This document shows, in pieces, positions 147 through 33,153 of a stretch of 33,307 bases of DNA. This DNA is from an uncultured Clostridia bacterium (GTDB taxonomy: Bacteria > Bacillota > Clostridia > Christensenellales > Pumilibacteraceae). The notes beneath the pieces are model-generated. The model was given only the letters and a program-made list of their open reading frames with translations, did not search any database and was not told the origin of the DNA. The first letter of the stretch is position 1. The number at the start of each line of letters is the position of its first letter. The DNA lies in assembly GCA_947588325.1 (NCBI GenBank), contig CANPYH010000002.1, positions 1-33,307 of the forward strand. Reading direction: 5' to 3'. A program made the position numbers and the translations under genes.

Positions 147-308
147 GAGAAGGCGCGGTACTCTTCGCCGCGCTTGAGCTTCGGAGCGGGAAAAAGGTTT
201 TGATTGATATATTCTCGCTTGATAGGTAGATAATTTCTACTCGTGCCTTGGGAAAATGACAATCCCCGCTTTTCGAGTAAACCATTGCTTTTCGAGTAAC
301 TAACATTG

Positions 309-508
309 ACAATCCCCTCAGGCGGACTTCGTCCGCCAGCCCCCCTCGACTTCGGGCGGCCCACCTGCTACCCAAGTTTTCGTGTTTATATCCAACAATC
401 TTGTAACGCTACAAGTTAGGTAACATATTCCCCCGAATAGCGGGGCGCGAACGTGGCCGCCCTTAGTAAGAGGGGCTGGCACGGCGTAGCCGTGACTGAG
501 GGGATTGT
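309..508. repeat. Composite MITE-like element: inverted pair of 'ACAATCCCCTCAG..GGGCGGCCAC' units
   Basis: Forward unit 309-363 and inverted unit 453-508 flank a core (CTGCTACCC..CAACAATCTTGTAA..ACAAGTTAGGTAAC..ATTCCCC) that recurs at 24865-25114. Confidence 0.75.
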
Positions 509-579
509 CATATAATCAATACACGTTAAGTAATATATTATCCGATAAGCAAAAATCGTAATATCAAACTATCCTATTG

Positions 580-987: not shown

Positions 988-2154
988 TTACAAAGAGATT
1001 ATCTCATAATACGCTCTCTTCGGCTGCAAATCGCGGGAGAAGATGAGGGGGTACTCGGTATGAATGGAGGTGGAGGCGTAGGTGTGATCGTCGGCGACGC
1101 CCCAGGTGGTTACGTTGGAAACGCGGCCGTGGCCCGCTGCGGTGGGCGCGGAGTACTTGCGGCAAACGCGGAAGATATCGGCGTACATCTCCCCCTGCGC
1201 AATCTCGACTTCGAGGGGGAGTCCGTCAAACGCCTGCGTGGAGCCATTGTAGGGATAGACCTGAATGTCCAGCTCGGTTATGTGCACGTCCAGCCCCATA
1301 TCGGTAAAGGTACGCACGGAGTCCTCAAAGTCCGCCATAAACGCGTCCCTGTCCGCCTCGTATTGCGGCAGACGGTAGTGCGCTTGCATGCCTATGCCGT
1401 CGATAGCGATACCGTCGGCACGCAGCATTTCAACGAGCTTGACGACAGCCTGTCTTTTGAGCGGGTTATTGAGCGTGTAGTCGTTATAGAACAGTTTAAC
1501 GTCGTCGCCGAGGGACTTACGCACCTGATCTGCCGTGCGGAACGCCTCTTTGATAAAGTCCACGCCGCACAGCCCGTACCAATCGAGGGAGTTGTCCCCG
1601 CTCGCCTCGCTGCCCCTGCGCCATATGTCCCCCGAATCGAGCTGGGCCTGGCTGATATTGCCGTGCAAAGCCTCGTTGCATACGTCCCAAACGTACAACT
1701 CGCCCTTAAAGTGCGTCATAACGTCGGTAATGTGCTTTCTTAATATCTCCAGCGCCGACTCTTTGGTCAGCTCTTTTTGCGTGAGCCAGGGCGGCAGAGA
1801 CTTGTACCACACAAGGCAATGCCCGCGCACTTCGGTGTTGTGCTCCTTCGCCCAGGATACCAGACTGTCCCCCGCGCCGAAGGAATATTGCCCCTCTTCG
1901 GGCTCGACAAACCGCCACTTCATCTCGTTTTCGGCGGTGATACTGTTAAAGTGGTGCATAAGCCCCGCTTTGTCGTACCGATTGATATTGCCCGTCAATA
2001 CCGCCGCGCCGACCGAAAAGTTATCCTTGTACTCGTCGCATATGTAGCCGTTATCCGTAAACGTCTCAGGCGAACAAGCCGTTGCGCCCGCCCCGATAAC
2101 GAAGCAAAGCACAACGGCTATTACGCAAACTATTGTTTTTAAGGCTCGCCGCAC
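988..2154 (-). CDS. GH10 endo-1,4-beta-xylanase, lipoprotein
   Basis: Signal peptide with Cys (VIGAGATAC); GH10 motifs VWDVCNEALHG (acid/base Glu) and HITELDIQV (nucleophile Glu). Start codon is GTG with RBS AGAGGTGG. Confidence 0.93.
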   Translation of the reverse strand: MRRALKTIVCVIAVVLCFVIGAGATACSPETFTDNGYICDEYKDNFSVGAAVLTGNINRYDKAGLMHHFNSITAENEMKWRFVEPEEGQYSFGAGDSLVSWAKEHNTEVRGHCLVWYKSLPPWLTQKELTKESALEILRKHITDVMTHFKGELYVWDVCNEALHGNISQAQLDSGDIWRRGSEASGDNSLDWYGLCGVDFIKEAFRTADQVRKSLGDDVKLFYNDYTLNNPLKRQAVVKLVEMLRADGIAIDGIGMQAHYRLPQYEADRDAFMADFEDSVRTFTDMGLDVHITELDIQVYPYNGSTQAFDGLPLEVEIAQGEMYADIFRVCRKYSAPTAAGHGRVSNVTTWGVADDHTYASTSIHTEYPLIFSRDLQPKRAYYEIISL

Positions 2155-2157
2155 TAA

Positions 2158-5100
2158 TTAAACCACCTCTGTAAAGGATATGTCGGTAATTGTTACGGTG
2201 AAGGGCTCCTCAACAGAAGCGGTATATCCCTTGAGTTGTAAATTGAACGGATTTCCGTCTTGTACCGTACCTGTATAAGTCAAAGTTCTGGTCAATTCGT
2301 CGGCTGTAAAATCAGTAAGGCGTTGATTACTTGTAGAATAAACTATTCTGAAGTTCGAAGGGAACGAGGATATAGTTATTTTCATCGAAACCTTATACTT
2401 CTTGCCAATCGCAAAATGAGGTTGAATTTTAAGTCGCGTTTTACCGTCATCGGAACCATTTTCCGAAGTATACGATATAGTCAATGTGCCGTTGTCGAAT
2501 TTAGGCGTTTCGGCATAATTGACGCCGCCCGGATCTGCATAGTACCATTTCCCGGGATTTGCACAAGCAATACCGTCATTATTATAAGATTGTTCGAGAT
2601 CATATGTGGTCGGTATCTCGACTACGCGTTTCTCAACCTTAATATTCTCAATAAGTATGCTTACGCCGTTATAGTCTGTGGTCGGATCAGTAACCTTATG
2701 GGATCTGATAGCAAACGTCTCTTTGTATGTCATTGTGCCTTCGTAGGTCACGCTCTTTTTTGAATTTGCCGTAAGCGAGATATATGCCAAATAAGGTTTA
2801 TCCCAAATAAGATTTGACGAAGACGCCTTAAGTCCGGGTTCCCCAATGCGAAGTTGTATATTTGCAGAAGCCGTAATGTCCATTGTTATCTTGTACGTCG
2901 TCGTGCCGTCGTCAAAGCCAGGCTGATAGCGGAAGTAGAAGTAGTTATCCGTTGCGGGCACTCCATACTCGTTAAAGGTTACACCAATGGAATCACCCTT
3001 TGTCGCACTCTTCTTGATCCAAGGCTCGGTGGTATAGGAGACGACCGTCTTGCTGTCCGTGCCGTAAGTCCATACTCCAGGCGTTTTCCTTGTGTCCGTG
3101 GCACTTTTATTCTCAAGCGGGGTAGCTTCGGGCTCGGGCTCAACTACGCGCTTTTCAAACTTAATATTCTCAACAAGTATGCTTGCTCCGTTTAAGGTTG
3201 TCGTATCTCCTTTAAGCGTATGGGTCTTGATGGAGAATGGATCCTGATTATTCATAGTGCCTTCATACGTTATTGTCAAGGGCTGGTTTGCCGTGAGGTT
3301 CTTGTATAACATATAGGTGCCACTGTAATCAAGGTCTACCCCGTCAGCCTTAAACCCAGGTTCGCCAACGCGAATTTGCATGTCTACGGAAGCGGTGACT
3401 GTTACGGTCGCGGTGTAAGTCGTTGTGCCGTCGTCAAACTTGGGTTGATAGCGGAAGTAGAAGTATTTTTGTGCGGTAATAGCACTTCCCTCATAAGTGT
3501 CAAATGTTACGCCGAGGGAATCGCCCTTTTCGGGATCTGTTTTAATCCAAGGCAATACGGAGTAAGTTATATACGTTACCTCACCTTGTGTTTCATCTGC
3601 GGAATAAACCCATGTTCCAGCCGCGCTTATTGCGCCCGCTCTATCTGTTTTCTTAAGCGGGGTCGCTTCGGGCTCGGGCTCTATGGTGCGCTCGGTAATC
3701 GAGATATCCGTCAAAACTATGCTTGCGCCGTTGAGGTTCTTAACCCCCTCGCCGAGCGCGTCGATTCTGATCGAGAACGGCTCTTTAGTCGATATTGTAC
3801 CGTCATAGTTAATCGCCGTCGCATTGCCTGCGGTTACAGTCTGTTTGGTGATATACTTGTCGCCGTATCCGTCCGTGCCCTCTGCAGGCTGACCGAAACG
3901 AACGGTAGCGTCAACGCTGACTGTGAGCATGAAGCTGATATTATAAGTAGCGGTCTCGGATTCGAACTTCGGCTGAATGCGGAAGTAGAAGTAATTATCC
4001 GTAGCGGGTACGGCGCCCTTGTTAAACATTACGCCCAAGGAATTATCCTTGCTCCAAGGCGCTATAATGAAGTTAATATTGGAGCCGTCGCCGTCGGCGT
4101 GGTAGAACCACTGTCCCGCATTGTCCATAGTTTGACCGTTCTGTTTATCTTCGAGCGGCGCGGTGCCGGGAATAGTTGCCGTAAAGGTTATGTTTTCTAT
4201 TTTGATTTCCAGACCGTCGAGGACTTCGACGCCTGCCGCGGCATGGTTAATGCCGATGGACAGAGGCTCGGTCGGGGTAACCTTGCCGCTGAACTTAACG
4301 GTCTGCGCCTCGTTCGCGGTAATGTGGGGATAGATATAATTGCTTCCGCCGTAGTCCGCGCTGCCGTCCGCCTTAACCCCCGCCTGTCCTACGCGAAGAT
4401 CCAGATCCTCGGTGGCGGTGATGGTAAAGGATACGGTGTAAGTCGCTCCCTCTCCGAATGCGGGTTGCATACGGAAGGAGAATTTGTTGTCTATGATGGG
4501 TCCCTTGTATTGGTAGGTTTTGAAGGTAACGCCAAGGCTGTCCTCCTTAAACCACGGCTTGGTGGAGTATTCAACCGCCGTCTCCTCATTACTTACCATG
4601 TAGTGCCAATTGCCCGCGTCTGCCATAATGGTGTCGCGGTCGGCAAGGGTTATCGCCTCGCTTCCCTCGGGAACAGTAGGCTCCTCGGGCTCGGGCTCAA
4701 CCGTTCTTGCGGTGATCGTGAACTCCTCGACAAGAATGGATACGCCGTTAAGGTTTGCCGTGCCTTCGCCGAGAGACTGTATTCTGATCGAGAAGGGCTC
4801 ACGGGTGGATATCGTACCGTCATAGTTTATCGCGGTTTTCTCGCCCGCTACAACGTCCTGGGTAGACATGTATGCGGCGCCGTATCCGTCCGCGCCCTCT
4901 GCGGGCTGACCGAAACGAATGGTAACGTTCGCGCTCACGGTCACCATAAAGCTGACGTGATAGGTGGTCGTGCCGTCGTCAAACTTGGGCTGGTAACGGA
5001 AATAGAAGTATTTGCCGTCGGCGGGTGCGCTGTATTGGTTAAACGTAGCGCCCATAGATTCGGCGTTATCGCCCATCTTCCAAGGCTCTATGTCAAAGGA

Positions 5101-8100
5101 TATGCCGCCGTCCACATGATAGAACCACTGCCCTGCTGCCCCCATTACGTCCGCATTGCCCTTCTTTTCGAGAGGAACACTGCCCTCTGGTGCGGAAGGC
5201 TTGGGAGCGACGGTGCGCTTTTCGAACTTGATGTTCTGAACAAGTATGGTTGCGCCGTCAAAGGTCTGCGCGCCGTTCTGAAGCGTGTTGGTGCGGATTG
5301 TAAACGGCTCCTGATCGCCGATCGTTCCCTCGAATGTTACGTCCATGGGCACATTGGCTTTGAGCACAGGATATTGCATTCCGTATGCGCCGCCGTATTG
5401 CCATTTACCGTCGGCATATATAGGTGCGCCGACGCGGAGCTGTATGTCAACGGTGGAGGTAATCGTCAGGGTTGCGGTGTAAGTCGTCGTGCCGTCGTCA
5501 AAGCTCGGCTGATAGCTGAAGTAGAAGAAGTTATTCGTCGCGGGTACGCCGTACTTGTCGAAGGTAACGCCGAGGCTGTCGCCCTTAACCCAAGGTTCGG
5601 TGGCGAAAGTCATGGTCGTTCCCTCGTTATCCGCCTCATAAGTCCAGACGCCCGAAGTGTTTACCGCCGTCTTTCTGTTTTGCGCTTCGAGCTTGGTGCT
5701 GCCCTCGGGCGCTTCGGGATCGGGGGGAGCTACGACTTCGACCTTGGTGAAGGAGATATCCGAAACGGTGATAGTGAAAGGCTGTTCCTTCATAAAGCCT
5801 TTGGGCTGTACATAGAAGGGCGTTTCGCCGTCGACTTCGGTCTCATAGTCTATGGTAGCGGAGAGGTTTTCGCCGAAGGAGAGGGTCTTGCCTTCCACGC
5901 CGTATATTACTCTGAAGCCCTTTTCCGTGTTCTCGGTCGCGACGCTCGAGACGGTAACGGTCATGTGCGCCTTATACTTGGTACCGACGGGGAACGCGGG
6001 CTGATAGCGAAGCTGGATAGTGTTGCTTTCGGTGTCCGCTACGGAGGTGAAGGACAAACTTGCCGCACCGTCCGCATATTTGGGCGTTTCCGCCAAGGTG
6101 TACGCCTCGCCCGCGGTGCCGTCAGCGGTGTAATACCACTTGCCGGGATCGCCGCAAACGGTTTTCTTGTCAGCCTTTGTAAGGTCATATCCCGTGGTAG
6201 GCTCGGGCTCGGGCGTGACGGTGCGCTCCTCGAACTCAATACCCGTTACAAGGAACTCGACGCCATCGAGGCTCTCGACGCCTTCGCCGAGCGCGTCGAT
6301 CTTGATCGAGAAGGGCTCGTTTGTCGAGGTTGTGCCGTCGTACGACACTTCGGCGGGCTCGTCTGCCGTAAGGTCGGTGGACTTAAAGCCCTCGCCCGGC
6401 TGACCGTAACGAACGGTTACGTTCGCGCCGACCTTAACCGTGAAGGTCGCGGTGTAGTTCTGGAATTCGGGCTGGTAGCGGAAGTAGAAATCATTCATGC
6501 TTTCATCACCCTGGTCACCGGGTTTGCCGTAAGTGCCGAAGGTTACACCGACGGTGTCGCCCTCGCCCCAGGGACGCTCGGAATATGCCGCCGAGACATC
6601 CTTATCCGCGAAGTAGTACCAAACGCCGGGATCATTGATGGTCTCGCTGTTAGTTCTCTTTTCGAGGGAGTGCTTAACATTGGGGTCGACTTCGGTCTTT
6701 TCGTAGCTGAACTCGCTGACCGAAACGGTTATGGGCGCGCCCTCTGTCGCAAATATTTCGATATGGAAAGGATCCGATCCGGACAATACGCTGCTTGCCG
6801 TTATGGATATATCCTCGTTTGCCGCAAGCTCGTTAAATCTCGTCCTTACCGCGTCGGTGCCTACGTCAATGTTGGCAGGTGCGGTGAGACGAATCTTGAA
6901 GGTTGCGGTGTAGTGCGTGCCGTAACCGTCCTCGAGCCAAGGCTGATAGCGGAGCTGATAGTGCTTGCCCGCGGTTATATTGTTAAGTTCGAGAGTTGCC
7001 GTGCCGTCGGCGTATGCCGCGCTTACAACTTCTCCCTGACCCTTGCCTTCGCCGCTGTCCACCATGTAGAACCACTTATCGGGGTGCTTGACGGTATCCG
7101 CCTTGCCCGCCCAGGTCATTTCATACTCGTCGCCGGGCTGTTCGGGCTCGGGCTGTTCGGGCTCGGGCTCGGGTTCGGGCTGAGGCTCAACGTCACCCGG
7201 CTGGCGGGGACGGAAGGAGATATCCGACATCTCGAAGGACGCGCCCGCAAGACCGGGATCTGCTGTGCGGGGTCCGATATGGAAGGGCTCTGCGTCGGTG
7301 ATCGTACCGAAGTAGGTTACTTCTTTGGACTGACCTGCCGTGACGGTGGTGGATCTGAGCGTGGAGGTGTCTTTGTTCGTGGTGTTATTACCCTCGGCGT
7401 CCTTCTTCCAAGCGGGCTGACCGTAGTTGATTTGTCCGCCGACGCTCATGGTAAGCGTGAAGGTCATGACATATTGACCCTCGTCGTTAGCCTGATCCGC
7501 CGTCGGCTGGTAACGGAAGTAGAAGTATTGATTCCGCTCAAGCGTGTTATATGCGTCGAAGGTTACGCCGACAGCATTGCCGCCGTACCAAGGCGACTGC
7601 TTGAAGCTGATGTTGCTGACGGAGCCGTCGTTGAAGTAGTACCAAACACCGGGAGACTGCATAACTGCGGCATTTTGCGCCTTCTCGAGTTTGCACCAGT
7701 CCTCGGGCCTTGACGGCGAGATGACGTGGACGGTGCAGGTGGCGGTCGTCGCGCCGCGCTGTGCGGTTATGATGACGTCGCCGATATTATCCCCGACCGC
7801 GGTGACTACGCCGCCAGATACCGTCGCAATGGTGACGTCGGAGGACTTCCAGGTCACGGTTCCGCCGTCCGATGATGTCGCCGTCAGCGTTATCTGCTGC
7901 TCGCCCTCGTCGAGGTTAATAGTCGCCTCTGTCTGGGAGATTGTTATCGTTCGGGTAAGTACCGTGATTTCGCAAGTAGCGGACTCGCCGTTCGAGGTCG
8001 TCGCGGTTATGGTAGCCGAGCCTTCGCCTACCGCCGTGACTGTGCCGTTACGAACGGTGGCGACTTTACTGTCGCTCGTATCCCACGTTACCTCTACCCC

Positions 8101-8268
8101 CCCCCCTACGTTTGCGGTGAGGCGGTATGTGTCGCCTACGTACATCGTGCGCTCGGTCTGGTTCAATGTTATCCCGCCGCCGCATGCAGAAAAAGTAGCA
8201 AGCACCAGCGAGAATGACAGGAGAACAGCGAGTACGATGACAATTGCCGATTTTTTGGAAACTCTCAT
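2158..8268 (-). CDS. Giant lipoprotein: two BIG2-like Ig domains plus ~11 tandem ~150-aa beta-rich modules, putative polysaccharide-binding protein
   Basis: Lipobox-like LVLATFSAC; two BIG2-type repeats (VTWDTSDSKVATVRNGTVTAVGEGSATITATT; VTWKSSDVTIATVSGGVVTAVG); recurrent W(F/Y)Y..PW..GDSLGVTF..Y..YFYFRYQP..Y.ATFT..R.GQP modules with PEPEPE linkers. RBS AGGAGG upstream. Confidence 0.88.
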   Translation of the reverse strand: MRVSKKSAIVIVLAVLLSFSLVLATFSACGGGITLNQTERTMYVGDTYRLTANVGGGVEVTWDTSDSKVATVRNGTVTAVGEGSATITATTSNGESATCEITVLTRTITISQTEATINLDEGEQQITLTATSSDGGTVTWKSSDVTIATVSGGVVTAVGDNIGDVIITAQRGATTATCTVHVISPSRPEDWCKLEKAQNAAVMQSPGVWYYFNDGSVSNISFKQSPWYGGNAVGVTFDAYNTLERNQYFYFRYQPTADQANDEGQYVMTFTLTMSVGGQINYGQPAWKKDAEGNNTTNKDTSTLRSTTVTAGQSKEVTYFGTITDAEPFHIGPRTADPGLAGASFEMSDISFRPRQPGDVEPQPEPEPEPEQPEPEQPGDEYEMTWAGKADTVKHPDKWFYMVDSGEGKGQGEVVSAAYADGTATLELNNITAGKHYQLRYQPWLEDGYGTHYTATFKIRLTAPANIDVGTDAVRTRFNELAANEDISITASSVLSGSDPFHIEIFATEGAPITVSVSEFSYEKTEVDPNVKHSLEKRTNSETINDPGVWYYFADKDVSAAYSERPWGEGDTVGVTFGTYGKPGDQGDESMNDFYFRYQPEFQNYTATFTVKVGANVTVRYGQPGEGFKSTDLTADEPAEVSYDGTTSTNEPFSIKIDALGEGVESLDGVEFLVTGIEFEERTVTPEPEPTTGYDLTKADKKTVCGDPGKWYYTADGTAGEAYTLAETPKYADGAASLSFTSVADTESNTIQLRYQPAFPVGTKYKAHMTVTVSSVATENTEKGFRVIYGVEGKTLSFGENLSATIDYETEVDGETPFYVQPKGFMKEQPFTITVSDISFTKVEVVAPPDPEAPEGSTKLEAQNRKTAVNTSGVWTYEADNEGTTMTFATEPWVKGDSLGVTFDKYGVPATNNFFYFSYQPSFDDGTTTYTATLTITSTVDIQLRVGAPIYADGKWQYGGAYGMQYPVLKANVPMDVTFEGTIGDQEPFTIRTNTLQNGAQTFDGATILVQNIKFEKRTVAPKPSAPEGSVPLEKKGNADVMGAAGQWFYHVDGGISFDIEPWKMGDNAESMGATFNQYSAPADGKYFYFRYQPKFDDGTTTYHVSFMVTVSANVTIRFGQPAEGADGYGAAYMSTQDVVAGEKTAINYDGTISTREPFSIRIQSLGEGTANLNGVSILVEEFTITARTVEPEPEEPTVPEGSEAITLADRDTIMADAGNWHYMVSNEETAVEYSTKPWFKEDSLGVTFKTYQYKGPIIDNKFSFRMQPAFGEGATYTVSFTITATEDLDLRVGQAGVKADGSADYGGSNYIYPHITANEAQTVKFSGKVTPTEPLSIGINHAAAGVEVLDGLEIKIENITFTATIPGTAPLEDKQNGQTMDNAGQWFYHADGDGSNINFIIAPWSKDNSLGVMFNKGAVPATDNYFYFRIQPKFESETATYNISFMLTVSVDATVRFGQPAEGTDGYGDKYITKQTVTAGNATAINYDGTISTKEPFSIRIDALGEGVKNLNGASIVLTDISITERTIEPEPEATPLKKTDRAGAISAAGTWVYSADETQGEVTYITYSVLPWIKTDPEKGDSLGVTFDTYEGSAITAQKYFYFRYQPKFDDGTTTYTATVTVTASVDMQIRVGEPGFKADGVDLDYSGTYMLYKNLTANQPLTITYEGTMNNQDPFSIKTHTLKGDTTTLNGASILVENIKFEKRVVEPEPEATPLENKSATDTRKTPGVWTYGTDSKTVVSYTTEPWIKKSATKGDSIGVTFNEYGVPATDNYFYFRYQPGFDDGTTTYKITMDITASANIQLRIGEPGLKASSSNLIWDKPYLAYISLTANSKKSVTYEGTMTYKETFAIRSHKVTDPTTDYNGVSILIENIKVEKRVVEIPTTYDLEQSYNNDGIACANPGKWYYADPGGVNYAETPKFDNGTLTISYTSENGSDDGKTRLKIQPHFAIGKKYKVSMKITISSFPSNFRIVYSTSNQRLTDFTADELTRTLTYTGTVQDGNPFNLQLKGYTASVEEPFTVTITDISFTEVV

Positions 8269-8624
8269 ACTTTCCTCCTTTTATAGGGCGCTCCGCCTTC
8301 TGTTTTTCGCCGCTTTTCGCGGCAATTGCGGATTTTACCCCAATCTACGTATACATTATAACACATATTTTTCTTCTGTGTTTTGCAATTTTTACTTTGT
8401 TATATTGCAATGTTTATTTAGTTGCGGATAGACTTTCCATAAAGTATTTTACCGCAAAGTGAGTTAATATAAAATAGGTTATTGTATTTTATAGTAGTTG
8501 CAGCAATTCGCCCTTTGGTTGCCCGCAAACCACTCGCCGCGCTGGAGCTATGGGGTCGGAAAAAAGGATTTCATTCGGCATATCCTGCTATAGATAAATA
8601 ATTACTTTTCGAGTATTTAACATT

Positions 8625-8668
8625 GACAATCCCCTCAGGCGCAACAAGTTGCGCCTGAGGGGATTGTC
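8625..8668. repeat. Minimal 44-bp perfect palindrome form of the ACAATCCCCTCAG element
   Basis: GACAATCCCCTCAGGCGCAAC-AA-GTTGCGCCTGAGGGGATTGTC: 21-bp perfect arms, 2-nt loop. Confidence 0.85.
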
Positions 8669-8725
8669 TTGTTTGTTACCCGAAAAATAATTATTTGCTT
8701 TCGGGGATTGTCCCTTACCTATTGC

Positions 8726-8753
8726 AAAAGGCACTCTTGTGATGCAGAGTGCC
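8726..8753 (-). terminator. Rho-independent terminator downstream of tmk
   Basis: Minus strand GGCACTCT-gcatcaca-AGAGTGCC-TTTT, ~30 nt past the tmk stop. Confidence 0.75.
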
Positions 8754-8784
8754 CTGAATGCGCGGATATATATATAATGATATT

Positions 8785-9399
8785 TTATAATAACTTACTT
8801 ACAGCAGACCTAATCAGCTTTGCCGTCTCTTCGGGTTCTTCCTTGCTCTCGATTACCGCGACGGACTGCTCGTCGGAGAGCAGATTAAACGCCTCGAAGT
8901 ATTTGGCGCGGACTTTTTCGAGGGTGGCGAGTTCCTCGTACCGCTCGCGGTTGGCACGACGGGAGAGCCTGCCGAAGGCACGGGCGGGGTCGAGATCGAT
9001 GTAGATGTTTAAGTCGGGCTTGAGCGTTTCGGCGGCGGCACGGTTTATCTCAATAACCCACTTGAGCGGGAGCTGCGTGCCCTGATAGGCATAGGACGAG
9101 AACAGGTATCTGTCCGTTATTACCCAATACCCTTCCTCTAACTTACCGAGTATGCCGTCCGTCGCGTTCCGTAAGTGGTCCACTCTGTCCGCAGCACAAA
9201 GTAACGCTATCGTCGCGTCATCAGTCGCTACCCTGCCCGTCATACATGAGTGTACCAACGCACCCATCGGACTGTCCGTCGGCTCCCGCGTAATGTATAC
9301 CCGCTTGCCCTCGCCCTCAAGGTATTTCTGTAACAACTTCATTTGCGTGCTCTTGCCACTGCCGTCTATCCCTTCAAACGCTATAAATTTTCCTTTCAT
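8785..9399 (-). CDS. tmk: dTMP (thymidylate) kinase
   Basis: KGKFIAFEGIDGSGKSTQMKLL P-loop, TREPT DRY motif (TREPTDSP), DRYLFSSYAYQG. Confidence 0.96.
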   Translation of the reverse strand: MKGKFIAFEGIDGSGKSTQMKLLQKYLEGEGKRVYITREPTDSPMGALVHSCMTGRVATDDATIALLCAADRVDHLRNATDGILGKLEEGYWVITDRYLFSSYAYQGTQLPLKWVIEINRAAAETLKPDLNIYIDLDPARAFGRLSRRANRERYEELATLEKVRAKYFEAFNLLSDEQSVAVIESKEEPEETAKLIRSAVSKLL

Positions 9400-9637: not shown

Positions 9638-9689
9638 ACAATCCCCTCAGGCGGCTTCGCCGCCAGCCCCCCTTGCTAAGGGCGGCCAC
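9638..9689 (+). repeat. ACAATCCCCTCAG-family hairpin repeat unit
   Basis: ACAATCCCCTCAG GCGGC-TTC-GCCGC CAGCCCCCCTTGCTAAGGGCGGCCAC. Confidence 0.75.
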
Positions 9690-9768
9690 CCCTTGTCCCC
9701 AACTATTCGGGTAAATAATTACTTAAAATGTATCTTCTTGCACAACCCCCATAACGAACCGAGTTTTG

Positions 9769-9892
9769 GAAGGCACAGAGTGCCGCTCAGACGTGCGAGA
9801 GAGGTTATTTCGACACAGGAGTTTACTAAAAACGTAAATGACTGTGTCGAAATGTTCTCGGCTCGCGCGTATCAGCGGTGCTATGTGACTTC
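9769..9892 (-). repeat. ~125-bp structured repeat, copy 2; overlaps the 3' end of the histidine kinase gene
   Basis: Near-identical to 863-987; minus strand starts GAAGTCACATAGCACCGCTGAT and encodes the kinase C-terminal EVT and stop. Confidence 0.8.
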
Positions 9893-11449
9893 CAACGGTA
9901 AAGTGAACCAGAAAGTACTGCCAACATTCTTCTCACTTGCCACTCCGTATGTGACGCCGTGGAGATCTAAGATCGACTTGACTATGGAGAGGCCGAGGCC
10001 GCTGCCGATGACGTTGCGCTTGTCCTGCGCGAGGCGGTAATACTTCTCCCAGACGGTGGCAAGCTCCTCTTCGGTCATGCCTTTGCCGGTGTCGGAGATC
10101 TCGACGCGGGCGAGGTTGCCGTCGGCGTAGCAGCGGACTTTGACCTTCTTGTCGGCGCCCGTGTAGTTCATGGCGTTGCCGATGAGGTTGTATATTACGC
10201 GGTCGATGCGCTCGCTATCCGCGCGAACGGACAGTTCCTTGGGCACGTCGAGGTCGAAGTCGTAACCCTTGGTCTCTTCCATTATGCGGAAGCGCCCAAC
10301 GGTCTCGCGGAGACGGACGGAGATGTCGAATACGCTGTAGTTAAGCTCGATTATGCCGCTTTCGAGCTTGGACAACTCCACCACTTCGCCGATAAGCGCG
10401 GTTAGCCTGTCCGTCTCGTCGATAATTATCTGTGCCTGTCTGGCGCACTTCTCCTTGTTTCCGCCCGAAATGTCGCGAATCATCTCGCTGTACGCGCGTA
10501 TCATGGTCAGCGGCGTTTTCATGTCGTGCGAGACGTTGGCGAGCAGGTCGCGGCGGAACCTGTTATTATTCTCCACGTCCTCAAACGCCTTGTTAATCGC
10601 CGAGGACAGCTCGTTTATCTCCGTAATGCGGGTGTCCGTCGCGAGGGGTTCGCGCTTCCCGCCGCCCGCGCCGCCGACGACTTTTTGCGTCAGAGTGCGT
10701 ATGGGCCGCGCCGCCACGCTCGAGGCAAAGAACGCCACGACGACGGCTATTACGAGGAAGGCGCCGCTTATTATCAGCAGCTGATATCCGATAGTGTTCT
10801 GCGCCGAAGTGAAGGCGGGGAGGGTTGCGGACATGTATATATAGTACGGCTCGGAGTTATGGACGAGCCTGATACCGTAAACGACCAGTGCGTCGTCGGT
10901 AAAGCCCGCGTCCACGGTGTTAAACACCCGCCCCTCGGCGTAAGACGTACCGAGACTTTGCATGTAGTATGACAGCATTCTGCCCTCGGGAGCCGTCGCC
11001 GCCGTACCCGTTACCGAGGACTGCGCCTGCAATACTTCGGTGGTATACCCGCCGCTTTCGCTGATATCGACGGAGAATACCACGATATTGACCTGGTGGG
11101 CGCGGGCAAAGGAATTGACGTACCCGAGCGGGTCGCTCCCGCTCTCGATCAGGTCTGTATAAGAGGCGGAAAACTCCCGACCTTCCTTCATCAGCTCGTT
11201 TTGCGCGTTGGCGGTGTAGGAAGCGGAGTAGAAAATAAACTCGTATACCCACAATATCGCAAGCATCACGACGGTCATGAGTATGAATATTATCCACAGG
11301 TTGAAGCGAATGGACTTAAACCACCTGCCTCCGCGGCTTATCGGCTTAATCTCGGGGCGCTGCGCCGTTTTTTCGTTCGGCAAAAATACAAGCTCGTGCT
11401 TGCCCCCCGTCTCGCCCTTTTCGGGCGCCTTGTTAGCCTCGTCGCTCAC
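9881..11449 (-). CDS. Sensor histidine kinase (two-component system)
   Basis: N-terminal TM, extracytoplasmic region, second TM, HisKA (LANVSHDMKTPLTMIRAYSEMI), HATPase_c (DRVIYNLIGNAMNYTG; GSGLGLSIVKSILDLHG). Confidence 0.95.
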   Translation of the reverse strand: MSDEANKAPEKGETGGKHELVFLPNEKTAQRPEIKPISRGGRWFKSIRFNLWIIFILMTVVMLAILWVYEFIFYSASYTANAQNELMKEGREFSASYTDLIESGSDPLGYVNSFARAHQVNIVVFSVDISESGGYTTEVLQAQSSVTGTAATAPEGRMLSYYMQSLGTSYAEGRVFNTVDAGFTDDALVVYGIRLVHNSEPYYIYMSATLPAFTSAQNTIGYQLLIISGAFLVIAVVVAFFASSVAARPIRTLTQKVVGGAGGGKREPLATDTRITEINELSSAINKAFEDVENNNRFRRDLLANVSHDMKTPLTMIRAYSEMIRDISGGNKEKCARQAQIIIDETDRLTALIGEVVELSKLESGIIELNYSVFDISVRLRETVGRFRIMEETKGYDFDLDVPKELSVRADSERIDRVIYNLIGNAMNYTGADKKVKVRCYADGNLARVEISDTGKGMTEEELATVWEKYYRLAQDKRNVIGSGLGLSIVKSILDLHGVTYGVASEKNVGSTFWFTLPLEVT

Positions 11450-15828: not shown

Positions 15829-17046
15829 TCAACCATTATTTTTCACTCCGAGGGAGAATATTTGTTTAACCGTCTGCGCCCTGTCCCCCTCTCCTTCGTC
15901 CGTCGCGGTTATCTCCACCTGATAAGCCCCGACCAATTGGGGAATGCCGCTAATCCTTCCCGACTTCGAAATGGTCAGTCCGACGGGCAGGTTATCCGCG
16001 GAAAAAGAGTAGTCCCCCGTTCCGCCGCAAACGTACACCCTCGCCGAGTAATTCTCCCCCACCGCGGCGAGGGGCAGGCTCTCGGTCTCAAAGGCGAGCG
16101 GAGGCACGGCGGATATCTCTTTATACGCCTCTCCCGTCGCCGCTATCTCGTCGTTTTCGTCGTACAGCGCGGTGTATACCGCCTCATACGGTCGATCGTC
16201 CCCGAGATTATCGAGGAACCAGGAGTAACGCATAACATAATCTTTCCCTTCGAGCATAGCCGCGGATTTTTGTATAAACTCCACCGCCTTCTCCTCTGTG
16301 CAATCGGAAGAGAGATGTCCCCAATGCTGTTCTCTCGCAATCGTGTCTATCGCGCCGAACTCCGTTACCCATATCGGCTTATGATATCTTTCGTACAATT
16401 TATCCAGCGTATCTTCGGCGAGAGATCTTACCATATCATCAACGTAGTAAAAGGGCAGGTAGGAATGTACGGTTATAAAGTCCACGCGATATTCCCGCTC
16501 TTCCGCCTTTTTCATAAAGTCGTCCAGCCACGCGTTCCCGTCGCCTATATACCAGCTGACGGCGGGACTTGAAAGGGGTATTCCTATCGACTCGAGTTTC
16601 TCCCAATATGACAGCGCCTCGTCCACCGACATATTTGCCTGGTCGGGCAGGTCGGGTTCGTTAAAGGTCAGAAGGTACTTGAACTTTCCGCTCTCGTAGT
16701 TTTCCTTTACATACGCGATATTTTCGTCCGTAACGCTCCACTTACCCCACATCATGGGCACAAACTCGGCGTCTATATACTCGTTTTCGGGTTTAAGTCC
16801 CCAATTGTAGTACCAGGAGCAACCGAGGTCGTTGACTTTATCCGCCGCCGCCTTTCCGCCCTTGTTGTATTTGGATACGCACAACCCCTTTTTGACGGCA
16901 TAGTCCGACCTCTCGCGGTGGGGCGCAAGGGAATTTACGTCCTCGGGCGGATCGGGATTTTGCTCCCTTCCGCACGCCGTGAAACAGAGCACCGCCATAA
17001 CCAATATTGCGGCTATAATCGCCGTTATCTTTTTCAACGCTTTCAT
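15829..17046 (-). CDS. GH128-like (Asl1-type) glycosyl hydrolase lipoprotein with C-terminal putative-Ig domain
   Basis: Lipobox AVLCFTAC; CSWYYNWGLKPE, FVPMMWG, LLTFNEPDLPDQANMSVDEAL, VDFITVHSY, PIWVTEFGA; C-terminal SFSADNLPVGLTISKSGRISGIPQLVGAYQVEITATD is He_PIG-like. Confidence 0.85.
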   Translation of the reverse strand: MKALKKITAIIAAILVMAVLCFTACGREQNPDPPEDVNSLAPHRERSDYAVKKGLCVSKYNKGGKAAADKVNDLGCSWYYNWGLKPENEYIDAEFVPMMWGKWSVTDENIAYVKENYESGKFKYLLTFNEPDLPDQANMSVDEALSYWEKLESIGIPLSSPAVSWYIGDGNAWLDDFMKKAEEREYRVDFITVHSYLPFYYVDDMVRSLAEDTLDKLYERYHKPIWVTEFGAIDTIAREQHWGHLSSDCTEEKAVEFIQKSAAMLEGKDYVMRYSWFLDNLGDDRPYEAVYTALYDENDEIAATGEAYKEISAVPPLAFETESLPLAAVGENYSARVYVCGGTGDYSFSADNLPVGLTISKSGRISGIPQLVGAYQVEITATDEGEGDRAQTVKQIFSLGVKNNG

Positions 17047-24504: not shown

Positions 24505-24654
24505 CGCAAAGTTCCTCCTGTTTTTCTGTTCTTTTACACATTTTATCACATTCGTTGAATACAAGTCAATGAATTTTAATCAATAAAATCAGATTTCGGA
24601 AAGATTTGGTGATTATATAAAGCGTTCTGCGAGTTCGCCGAGCGCTTGCTACAA

Positions 24655-24780
24655 GCGCGTCGCATAGCACCGCTGATGGACGACGAGAAATCGCGGCTTC
24701 TGCTCGGTCATTTACGCTGTTATAGTAAACTCCCTCGCGAAGCCTTGATTTTCGCGCCCCTGAGCGGCACTCTCCGCCGC
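24655..24780 (+). repeat. Diverged third member of the ~125-bp structured repeat
   Basis: Shares ATAGCACCGCTGAT, TCATTTAC..AGTAAACTC and TGAGCGGCACTCT in the same order as 863-987 and 9769-9892 (reverse complement). Confidence 0.65.
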
Positions 24781-24864
24781 GCTCGGGTCGGTTCGTTGTT
24801 AAAAGGTTTCATTGAAGAACAATATCTTTACAGGTTAATTATTTCTTTACGGGTATTTGACAAG

Positions 24865-25114
24865 ACAATCCCCTCAGGCGCAACAAGTTGCGCCAGCTCC
24901 CCTCCCCTTATTAAGGGCGGCCACACCTTGCACCTGACTTCTCGCGCTTTTCAATCTTTTGGTCTGGCACAACCTGCTACCCGAGTTTAGGCCATAACCA
25001 ACAATCTTGTAATGAAACAAGTTATGTAACTATATTCCCCGAAAAGCGGGGAACGAATGTGACCGCCCGAAGTCGAGGGGGGCTGTCTGCTGTCAGGCAA
25101 ACTGAGGGGATTGT
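24865..25114. repeat. Composite MITE-like element (inverted pair plus core), second copy
   Basis: Forward unit 24865-24924 and inverted unit 25059-25114; core ACCTGCTACCCGAGTTT..AACCAACAATCTTGTAAT..ACAAGTTATGTAAC..TATTCCCCGAAAAGCGGGG matches the 309-508 core. Confidence 0.75.
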
Positions 25115-25202
25115 AACGCACCATACAAAGTTTGTTGCTCAAACACACAAAGTATCACAACCAAAAATTAAACGAAGATTTTTAAGTTTTTTTGGAAAGG
25201 GG

Positions 25203-30404: not shown

Positions 30405-31268
30405 TTACTTTTTCTTGCTCTTCTCGAGGATTTCGAGCAATTCGTGCAAGCGGTTCAGGTCGTCGGTGGAGTAGTAGTCGATATAAATTCTACCCTTGCG
30501 GTCATTGCCGTACACCGAGACCTTGGTCGCAAACACGCGCTGCATGCGCTCGACCATATCTTTAAGCTCGAGGGAAGGCTCGGGCGGTTTAGGCTTCGAG
30601 GCAGGGGGCGCGGTAAGCGCCTTAACAATCTTTTCAAGCTCACGAACGGTAATCTTGCCGCCGACAGCCTTTTTAGCCAGCTCGAGTTGCTTCTCGTCGG
30701 AAATGCCCACCAGGCACCGCGCGTGACCTTCGGACAGCTTGCCCGCCGCGACAAGATCGATAACGGGTGCGGAGAGGGTAAGCAGACGGAGCGTGTTGGC
30801 GACAGAGGGGCGCGACTTGCCGATTCTGTCCGCGACTTGCTCCTGAGTATATGAGTAGTCAGTCATCAGCTGTTTAATCGCCGCAGCCACCTCGATGGGG
30901 TTAAGGTCCTCGCGTTGCAGGTTTTCGATCAGGGAGATCTCCTTGATTTCCTTCTCCGAGTAGTCGCGTACTATCGCGGGAATGGTCGAAAGCCCCGCCT
31001 TCTTTGCTGCGCGCCATCGACGCTCTCCGGCTATAATCATGTAGCCGTCGCCGCGCTTAACAAGGATAATGGGGGAGATAACGCCGTGCACGCGAATGCT
31101 GTTAGCGAGTTCGAGCAGCGCCGCCTCGTCGAAAGACTTGCGGGGCTGGTTCTCGTTAGGTCGGATTTGCGCGATGGGGATCTCCTTAGCGGTGTTATCG
31201 TCGTCGTCCAGGGTCAAGTCTCCGAAAAGGGCGCCCAGACCCTTTCCTAAACCGTGTTTAACTGCCAT
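30405..31268 (-). CDS. parB: ParB/Spo0J chromosome-partitioning protein
   Basis: MAVKHGLGKGLGALFGDL; QIRPNENQPRKSFDEAALLELANSI; IIAGERRWRAAKKAGLSTIPAIVRDYSEKEIKEISLIENLQREDLNPIEVA; C-terminal basic tail. Confidence 0.97.
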   Translation of the reverse strand: MAVKHGLGKGLGALFGDLTLDDDDNTAKEIPIAQIRPNENQPRKSFDEAALLELANSIRVHGVISPIILVKRGDGYMIIAGERRWRAAKKAGLSTIPAIVRDYSEKEIKEISLIENLQREDLNPIEVAAAIKQLMTDYSYTQEQVADRIGKSRPSVANTLRLLTLSAPVIDLVAAGKLSEGHARCLVGISDEKQLELAKKAVGGKITVRELEKIVKALTAPPASKPKPPEPSLELKDMVERMQRVFATKVSVYGNDRKGRIYIDYYSTDDLNRLHELLEILEKSKKK

Positions 31269-31921
31269 ATGTCATCCTCCGTTTTTATTTATTATAGTAT
31301 GCGCCCGTGCGTTTTGTCAAGATGTAGCGCGGAAATTCCCCGATTTTTTCTCTGGGCAAGTATGGTAATTATTAACTCATAACTTTGTGCGTTTCACCCA
31401 AGCTTCTTTCCCCCCGCGTTGTGCGCTTTTACGCGCTGTCGCTTGGGTCGTCAGGGGGAACAAGCGCGAGAGGGTCGGGTAGATGCGAGTTTGCGGGCCG
31501 CGGGGAACAGACAAACTGCAAAAAGAGGTGAAAGAGCCGCATAGATATGATATCATAACTTTATTTGTAAAGGGAGTGGAATAACAGGGTGTTATACGAG
31601 GTCATTTAGCGGGGTGACATAATGCTCGCGGCGCGCGGAGGATCTTATGCGTGGGTGGTCGAGGATCGAGGGTTTTTCGCTGCGAAGAAGTCGTTTCGGC
31701 GCGCGGCAGAATCAATACAGAAGTAGACGGTATGGCGGGTTTTGCATTGCGGGTGAAGGGTGGAGAGACAGAGCGCGTGTGTGGCGGTTGGTGGGTTTTT
31801 CGAGTCGGCGCGGAAAGGCGGAGACGGAACACGGAGGAGCGAGTTTTCGCACACTTGCCATAGCTGCGCGGATTGGCTTGGCGGCAAAGTTTTTCAGAGG
31901 GCATACAGGTATGCGAGTATG

Positions 31922-32134
31922 TTTTACGTGTGCCTTGCGTTTAGCGAACAATTGGCGACGAACAGATTATTACTGTTCTGCGGGCTGGTGGTTTATAAAG
32001 GGTAGAGTGAGGATATTGTTTACGCACGCCTTGCGTTTGCGATCGATTGACGACGAACAGATTATTACTGTTCTGCGGGCCGGTAGTTTATAAGGGGTGG
32101 AGTGAGGATATTGTTTACGCACGCCTTGATTTTG
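31922..32134. repeat. ~95-bp tandem repeat, about 2 units
   Basis: CGACGAACAGATTATTACTGTTCTGCGGGCYGGTRGTTTATAARGGGTRGAGTGAGGATATTGTTTACGCACGCCTTG at 31956 and 32051; includes GAACAG-attatta-CTGTTC. Confidence 0.85.
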
Positions 32135-32319
32135 TTGTTGAGTGGAATTTTCGATCACATTCAAATCGTTCGCACAGTGTCCGACAACGCGCCAACAGGA
32201 AAAATAAGGACAAAGGTATGAAATCATAACTTTGTATATTGGAGAGCAGAAAATAGAGGGGTGTTTATATATAGATATTAAGGTTTGCACATTGGTGGTC
32301 AGCAAATATGGCGGTAGAA

Positions 32320-32470
32320 TGGAAAATCAAGATATGGTGGGGTTGATCGGCGGGGTAAAGCGCGGGTGTTTGTGCGTGCGTGGCACGTGGCGCAGGGTTG
32401 AGTCTGCGTAGAGATAATAAAAAGGGCGATAGATAATACATAGATATTAAATCATAACTTTGAACATTAG
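32320..32470. repeat. ~150-bp direct repeat, copy 1 (305-bp offset)
   Basis: ATGGTGGGGTTGATCGGCGGGGTAAAGCGCGGGTGTTTGTGCGTGCGTGGCACGTGGCGC..TTAAATCATAACTTTGAACATTAG. Confidence 0.9.
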
Positions 32471-32624
32471 AGATTGTGAACAATAAAGAATGGGTGGAAT
32501 TTGTGTAGTAATCTTTTGTGATAGAAGGGGAGACATGAAGCGAGCATTTGTTTAGATTAGGGGGATCTTTTAGTGGGATATTAGGGGCTTGCAAATCAGG
32601 AGTTAGTGGATATAACCATGAGGG

Positions 32625-32775
32625 TGGAAAACCAAGACATGGTGGGGTTGATCGGCAGGGTAAAGCGCGGGTATTTGTGCGTGCGTGGCACGTGGCGCAG
32701 GGTTGAGTCTGCGTAGAGATAATAAAAAGGGCGATAGATAACACATAGATATTAAATCATAACTTTGAACATTAG
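32625..32775. repeat. ~150-bp direct repeat, copy 2
   Basis: Near-identical to 32320-32470; the core differs at only a few positions. Confidence 0.9.
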
Positions 32776-33028
32776 GGACGTGAAAGATTATTATGGTGGA
32801 GGGTTGTTTATATATAGATTCAAGATGTTGTTTATATATAGATATATTAAGAGTTTGCAAATAAGAGTCGGTTGATATAGACGAGAGAGCGGGAAATGTT
32901 GTAAGATCACTGTTACGCCGCAATTTGGGTAGAATTATTATGCGTTGGTTTGTTGGTGGGAAAGGTTATATTTTGAAATATTAAGCAACGCTATTCGAGT
33001 AATAATTACTTTTGGGTAGCGAACATTA

Positions 33029-33086
33029 ACAATCCCCTCAGTCGTCCCGTTGGGACGCCAGCCCCCCCTTACTAAGGGCGGCCCAC
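33029..33086 (+). repeat. ACAATCCCCTCAG-family hairpin repeat unit
   Basis: ACAATCCCCTCAGT CGTCCC-GTT-GGGACG CCAGCCCCCCCTTACTAAGGGCGGCCCAC. Confidence 0.75.
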
Positions 33087-33153
33087 AGTTTGTTTCAGAC
33101 TTTCTGGGGAATAAATACTTAACCAATATTGTGAAACCACTGCTTTATACCGC

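Follow-up and report, generated by a model that had tools for sequence, protein, structure and literature searches.

SGBP-B of Bacteroides thetaiotaomicron is a non-catalytic lipoprotein that carries glycan-binding domains and lies beside enzymes, and Sas20 of Ruminococcus bromii reportedly has a starch ligand, other domains and far fewer repeats than the protein described here. Like our protein, Sas20 is a non-catalytic glycan-binding protein of a surface system, from a Bacillota gut bacterium (PMC9112005). Tandem CBM4-type modules serving a GH10 are also found in the Xyn10C-like GH10 enzymes BiXyn10A and Pm25; in Pm25, a xylanase from the termite gut, CBM4s in tandem have a higher affinity for xylan than single modules and are of benefit on wheat bran, and a Y-to-A change in the CBM4 motif W/Y-x-x-Q-L abolished binding (PMC7848910). 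Whereas these Bacteroidota enzymes have two CBMs inserted in the enzyme (PMC7848910), here eleven CBM4-like modules are carried by a separate lipoprotein of a member of Clostridia. We found no description of such an array in the literature searched, with most subscription papers outside its coverage.

The window, that is, the whole stretch of DNA analysed, comprises 33,307 nucleotides from an uncultured, gut-type Clostridia bacterium (assembly GCA_947588325.1). It encodes a giant lipoprotein and a neighbouring GH10 xylanase (Table 1). The frame of the array protein starts with an ATG that is preceded by AAAAGGAGGAAAGTATG, and the lipobox LATFSAC with Cys29 was read directly from the translation. 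The two BIG2-like domains that the initial annotation had placed ahead of the repeats were recovered as two Pfam Big_2 stretches (2.6e-12), and aBig_2 was weakly matched at aa 123-174. An antisense ORF of 1445 aa (3376-7713, plus strand) was judged to be a shadow of the coding strand, probably arising from codon bias. The Rfam scan gave nothing.

Table 1. Features of the array locus, in window positions.
Feature	Position	Strand	Evidence or remark
2036-aa lipoprotein gene	2158..8268	(-)	signal peptide/lipobox, 2 Big_2, 11 CBM4-like modules
Big_2 domain 1 (aa 33-100)	7969..8172	(-)	Pfam PF02368
Big_2 domain 2 (about aa 108-182, limits approximate)	7723..7947	(-)	second Pfam Big_2 stretch
Module 1, type A	7207..7701	(-)	held-out profile E 5.9e-33
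Module 2, type B	6697..7131	(-)	held-out profile E 2.9e-32
Module 3, type A	6223..6669	(-)	held-out profile E 1.1e-28
Module 4, type B	5740..6192	(-)	held-out profile E 1.8e-39
Module 5, type A	5215..5694	(-)	held-out profile E 2e-22; AlphaFold model on 5215-5703
Module 6, type A	4705..5175	(-)	held-out profile E 8.6e-29
Module 7, type A	4177..4656	(-)	held-out profile E 1.8e-24
Module 8, type A	3688..4158	(-)	held-out profile E 9.6e-30
Module 9, type A	3148..3660	(-)	held-out profile E 1.2e-21
Module 10, type A	2626..3120	(-)	held-out profile E 5.2e-19
Module 11, type B	2164..2604	(-)	held-out profile E 1.1e-26; AlphaFold model on 2161-2607
GH10 xylanase lipoprotein	988..2154	(-)	Pfam PF00331 6.5e-82

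As circularity was to be avoided, the modules were counted with a held-out profile trained on 17 modules taken from three further genomes, with the window modules left out. The profile returned exactly 11 domains in the array protein (E 5e-19 to 2e-39), each about 145-171 aa long, which bears out the earlier estimate of about eleven tandem copies of about 150 aa; reversed and 20 shuffled versions of the protein gave no match. Each module has a W-x-Y anchor (aa 209, 399, 550, 711, 875, 1048, 1221, 1387, 1553, 1733 and 1908). The motif set that the initial annotation assigned to all copies proved to be strong in the eight type A modules (1, 3 and 5-10; PW..GDSLGVTF, FYFRYQP and EPFSI), but modules 2, 4 and 11 constitute a second type B, which is shorter and YQLRYQP-like. 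Similarly, the PEPE-type linkers, said to join the modules often, are present after modules 1, 3, 6, 8 and 9, but the other junctions are short.

Modelling of single modules for comparison with CBM folds, as had been proposed, gave beta-jelly-rolls with CBM4 foremost. The AlphaFold model of module 5, based on an alignment of 28 modules, reached a pLDDT of 93.3 and a pTM of 0.89. Its top Foldseek match in the PDB was the CBM4 1gui (E 1.2e-6, prob 1.0, TM 0.56/0.59), SGBP-B (7kwc/7kwb) came second, and later matches were mostly CBM4, SGBP-B, CBM16, CBM11, CBM22, CBM29 and the CBM of BiXyn10A; carbohydrate-binding modules and glycan-binding proteins formed the majority among the 50 PDB matches listed. 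A TM of about 0.56 to CBM4 is modest, and the modules share about 17% of their residues with CBM4 sequences. The input for the model of module 11, of type B (pLDDT 91.6), was an alignment headed by another sequence but overlapping the one used for module 5; with rows in common, the two predictions are only partly independent of each other. Foldseek placed the hyaluronan-binding module 4d0q first and CBM4s next, with jelly-roll domains of other proteins also listed. A CBM4-type beta-jelly-roll of about 150 aa is thus predicted by two models, with a Foldseek E to CBM4 of about 1e-6.

In sequence, no family of Pfam or NCBIfam was matched by the modules, and CBM_4_9 (PF02018) had no match above its curated cut-off in the array protein. 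Sub-threshold CBM_4_9 matches reached 4.4e-4 at best in the 28-module set, among other weak matches, and 21.0 bits against a cut-off of 25.9 in locus L025. When searched against PDB sequences, the window-only profile (A1) gave no match, the core profile matched 1gui best (E 0.19, near full length), and a bridging profile of core modules and divergent relatives (A6) had the CBM of the GH10 enzyme BiXyn10A as its best match (E 0.0013), along with other CBM4 chains. Antibody light chains also appeared among the low-E matches of A6 and were taken as beta-sandwich noise. In a stronger test, A6 was run blind over 391 genomes of the class (390 besides its own) at a threshold of 1e-6. Outside its own genome it hit five loci in five genomes, where six of six ORFs carried Pfam CBM_4_9 above cut-off, GH9 and GH16 proteins among them; reversed ORFs from the five matched loci gave no matches. 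In a small set of ORFs chosen beforehand, A1 matched the CBM_4_9 linked to a GH9 at 1.5e-9. The A6 matches outside the own genome and the A1 match indicate common ancestry with CBM_4_9. On the other hand, hhalign aligned profile A3 only weakly with the CBM_4_9 domains found in the order itself (prob 4.9%, E 0.008; the Big_2 negative control was lower), so the relation is remote, and hhalign was not used as proof.

The module is a remote, divergent member (subfamily) of the CBM4/9 jelly-roll superfamily. The initial annotation did not recognise it as a named CBM and suggested a possibly new CBM-like family; it does lie outside Pfam and NCBIfam, but it is not wholly unrelated to known CBMs. The best reading is a divergent subfamily of the CBM4/9 superfamily, here strung into a non-catalytic array of unusual length. 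With CBM4 (PF02018; T. maritima Lam16A CBM4-2 1gui, R. marinus Xyn10A CBM4-2) it shares the predicted fold, remote homology and linkage to GH10, GH16 and GH9 enzymes. Unlike CBM4, the modules score below the Pfam gathering score and are without the usual N-G-x-F-E start, and the module is repeated 11 times with no enzyme in the same chain. Since profile libraries miss this CBM4-like subfamily, the glycan-degrading capacity of these lineages is probably under-annotated.

We consider it probable that the protein has no catalytic role and captures glycans as a lipoprotein anchored in the membrane, its CBM4-like modules binding plant beta-glycan, most likely xylan, in the service of the GH10. Carbohydrate binding by the modules is supported by the predicted fold, the distant sequence relation, the domain fusions and synteny, as is the role first predicted from the sequence, a surface carbohydrate-binding array coupled to a GH10 xylanase; what we infer is the sugar binding itself, a xylan ligand, avidity and a shared transcript with the GH10. 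The GH10 starts 4 nt past the array stop codon and keeps both catalytic Glu motifs (WDVCNEAL and ITELDI), and the genome has 14 GH3 matches. Neither the core module nor a GH10 was found in 13 same-genus genomes (0/13 each); these drafts are 73-95% complete, so that a single absence is weak but thirteen together are not. The array and the GH10 thus seem to have arrived as a pair, or to have been lost jointly by the relatives. A scan of 396 genomes of the order gave 15 with a match at 1e-3, three of them strong, the own genome included. No match was found by tblastn against phages and plasmids, and no mobile-element record supports the array. Among the window neighbours named (thymidylate kinase, a two-component system, transporter-like and housekeeping genes) there was no SusC/SusD pair; in this the locus is unlike SGBP-B, as it is in having many homologous repeats rather than few distinct domains. 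Another glycan-active protein, with Pfam Glyco_hydro_cc (1e-49) and He_PIG domains, is encoded at 15829-17046 (minus strand).

A profile scan of genome contigs found three Clostridia MAG loci, each with a Big_2 lipoprotein of 4-6 modules. Two of them, L019 and L020, have the gene order GH3-array-GH10-GH3; the downstream GH3 and a second, module-fused GH10 of L020 were confirmed by Pfam, and the remaining enzymes of the two loci, among them all those of L019 and the upstream GH3 of L020, were identified by eye from their translations. The fused GH10 (L020:10118-12346) is a lipoprotein whose single chain combines one Big_2 and one module with the catalytic domain, and L021:5048-6616 is a SASA carbohydrate esterase that has a module as its C-terminal part; the module thus shares a polypeptide with a carbohydrate-active enzyme in these two proteins, though not in the window protein itself. 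A CBM array whose main ligand is another glycan, be it beta-1,3- or mixed-linkage glucan, mannan, or a host glycan such as hyaluronan or mucin, appears unlikely. CBM4-like folds span many ligands, the best match of the type B model binds hyaluronan, 1gui is a laminarinase CBM, and paralogous lipoproteins flank a GH16 on contig C44 of the same genome. However, core-type modules are tied to GH10 in the window, L019 and L020 and to SASA esterases in L021, one is fused to a GH10, and the only GH10 of the assembly adjoins the array.

The ligand-cleft motif W-x-x-Q-L/I is present in divergent relatives and its Q is kept in most type B modules, but it is replaced in type A, where the W/Y-x-x-Q-L strand is altered to FYFRYQP. 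Because this strand holds ligand residues in Pm25, specificity may have shifted. The same alteration, the wide variation among the 11 modules (pairwise identity 17-60%, median 31%) and the Big_2 and PEPE linkers typical of stalks would also fit an adhesin or structural stalk, in which the repeats serve chiefly as spacers or for adhesion to proteins or to the host, most copies having lost sugar binding. We regard this as improbable, as the W-x-Y and R-x-Q-P positions are kept across 28 modules from four genomes and spacers rarely explain single modules fused to enzymes. The conserved columns of alignment A3 include W20, Y22, R63 and Q65, with Ser at the R63 column in module 5. That the module has a wholly new carbohydrate-binding fold without kinship to known CBMs, as the lack of a Pfam or NCBIfam match might suggest, is scarcely credible and already disfavoured by the confident jelly-roll models, with CBM4 as the nearest fold, and the sequence links to CBM_4_9.

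If the protein is a glycan-capture lipoprotein, the lipid anchor and two Big_2 spacers would hold the eleven modules outside the membrane, where they would bind plant beta-glycan, most likely (acetylated, decorated) xylan. Avidity of the array, for which the tighter binding by the tandem CBM4s of Pm25 is a precedent, would keep the polymer at the cell surface; the co-encoded lipoprotein GH10 would then cut it, and the cell may import the oligosaccharides or degrade them with enzymes such as GH3. A bolder version, which we put a little short of even, is that of a new CBM family or subfamily, patchy in uncultured gut Clostridia, forming an eleven-valent decorated-xylan array that serves a xylanase on a lipoprotein of its own. 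Such an array would be the Gram-positive equivalent of the surface glycan-binding proteins of Bacteroidota, enlarged through recent duplication and shuffling of modules. The locus provides a testable hypothesis of how a small-genome uncultured Clostridia species may hold xylan, with one long multivalent binder and one xylanase, apparently gained together.

In the module tree, modules 1 and 2 group with the first two modules of L019 (99/95 each), and modules 5-10 form a window-specific group; the middle of the array therefore expanded in this lineage. Further copies occur on contigs C10, C116 and, more divergent, C44 of the own genome. A 367-bp block of module 7 (window 4325-4691) is 98.1% identical to L001:12763-13129 on contig C10, which points to recent module shuffling or transfer within the genome. 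The C10 gene (L001:9516-15044, minus strand) encodes an otherwise dissimilar 1842-aa lipoprotein of another repeat family, with many repeats of about 100 aa (DUF4369-like, Pfam 3.1e-15) and a single module; its neighbours were read as Cas9 (4837-9102) and Cas1 (3957-4835). On contig C44 (L017:487-8998), the two lipoproteins that flank the GH16 lipoprotein have Big_2-like N termini and divergent modules, in parallel to the array-GH10 pair, so the copies may vary in ligand. Repeats of about 50-240 bp are dispersed over intergenic stretches (window 267-540, 710-987, 8595-8694, 9638-9893, 24649-25115 and 32989-33087) and have copies on contigs C10 and C44 as well. AT-rich repeats at 31539-32785, near a ParB gene (30405-31268), are possibly origin-proximal.
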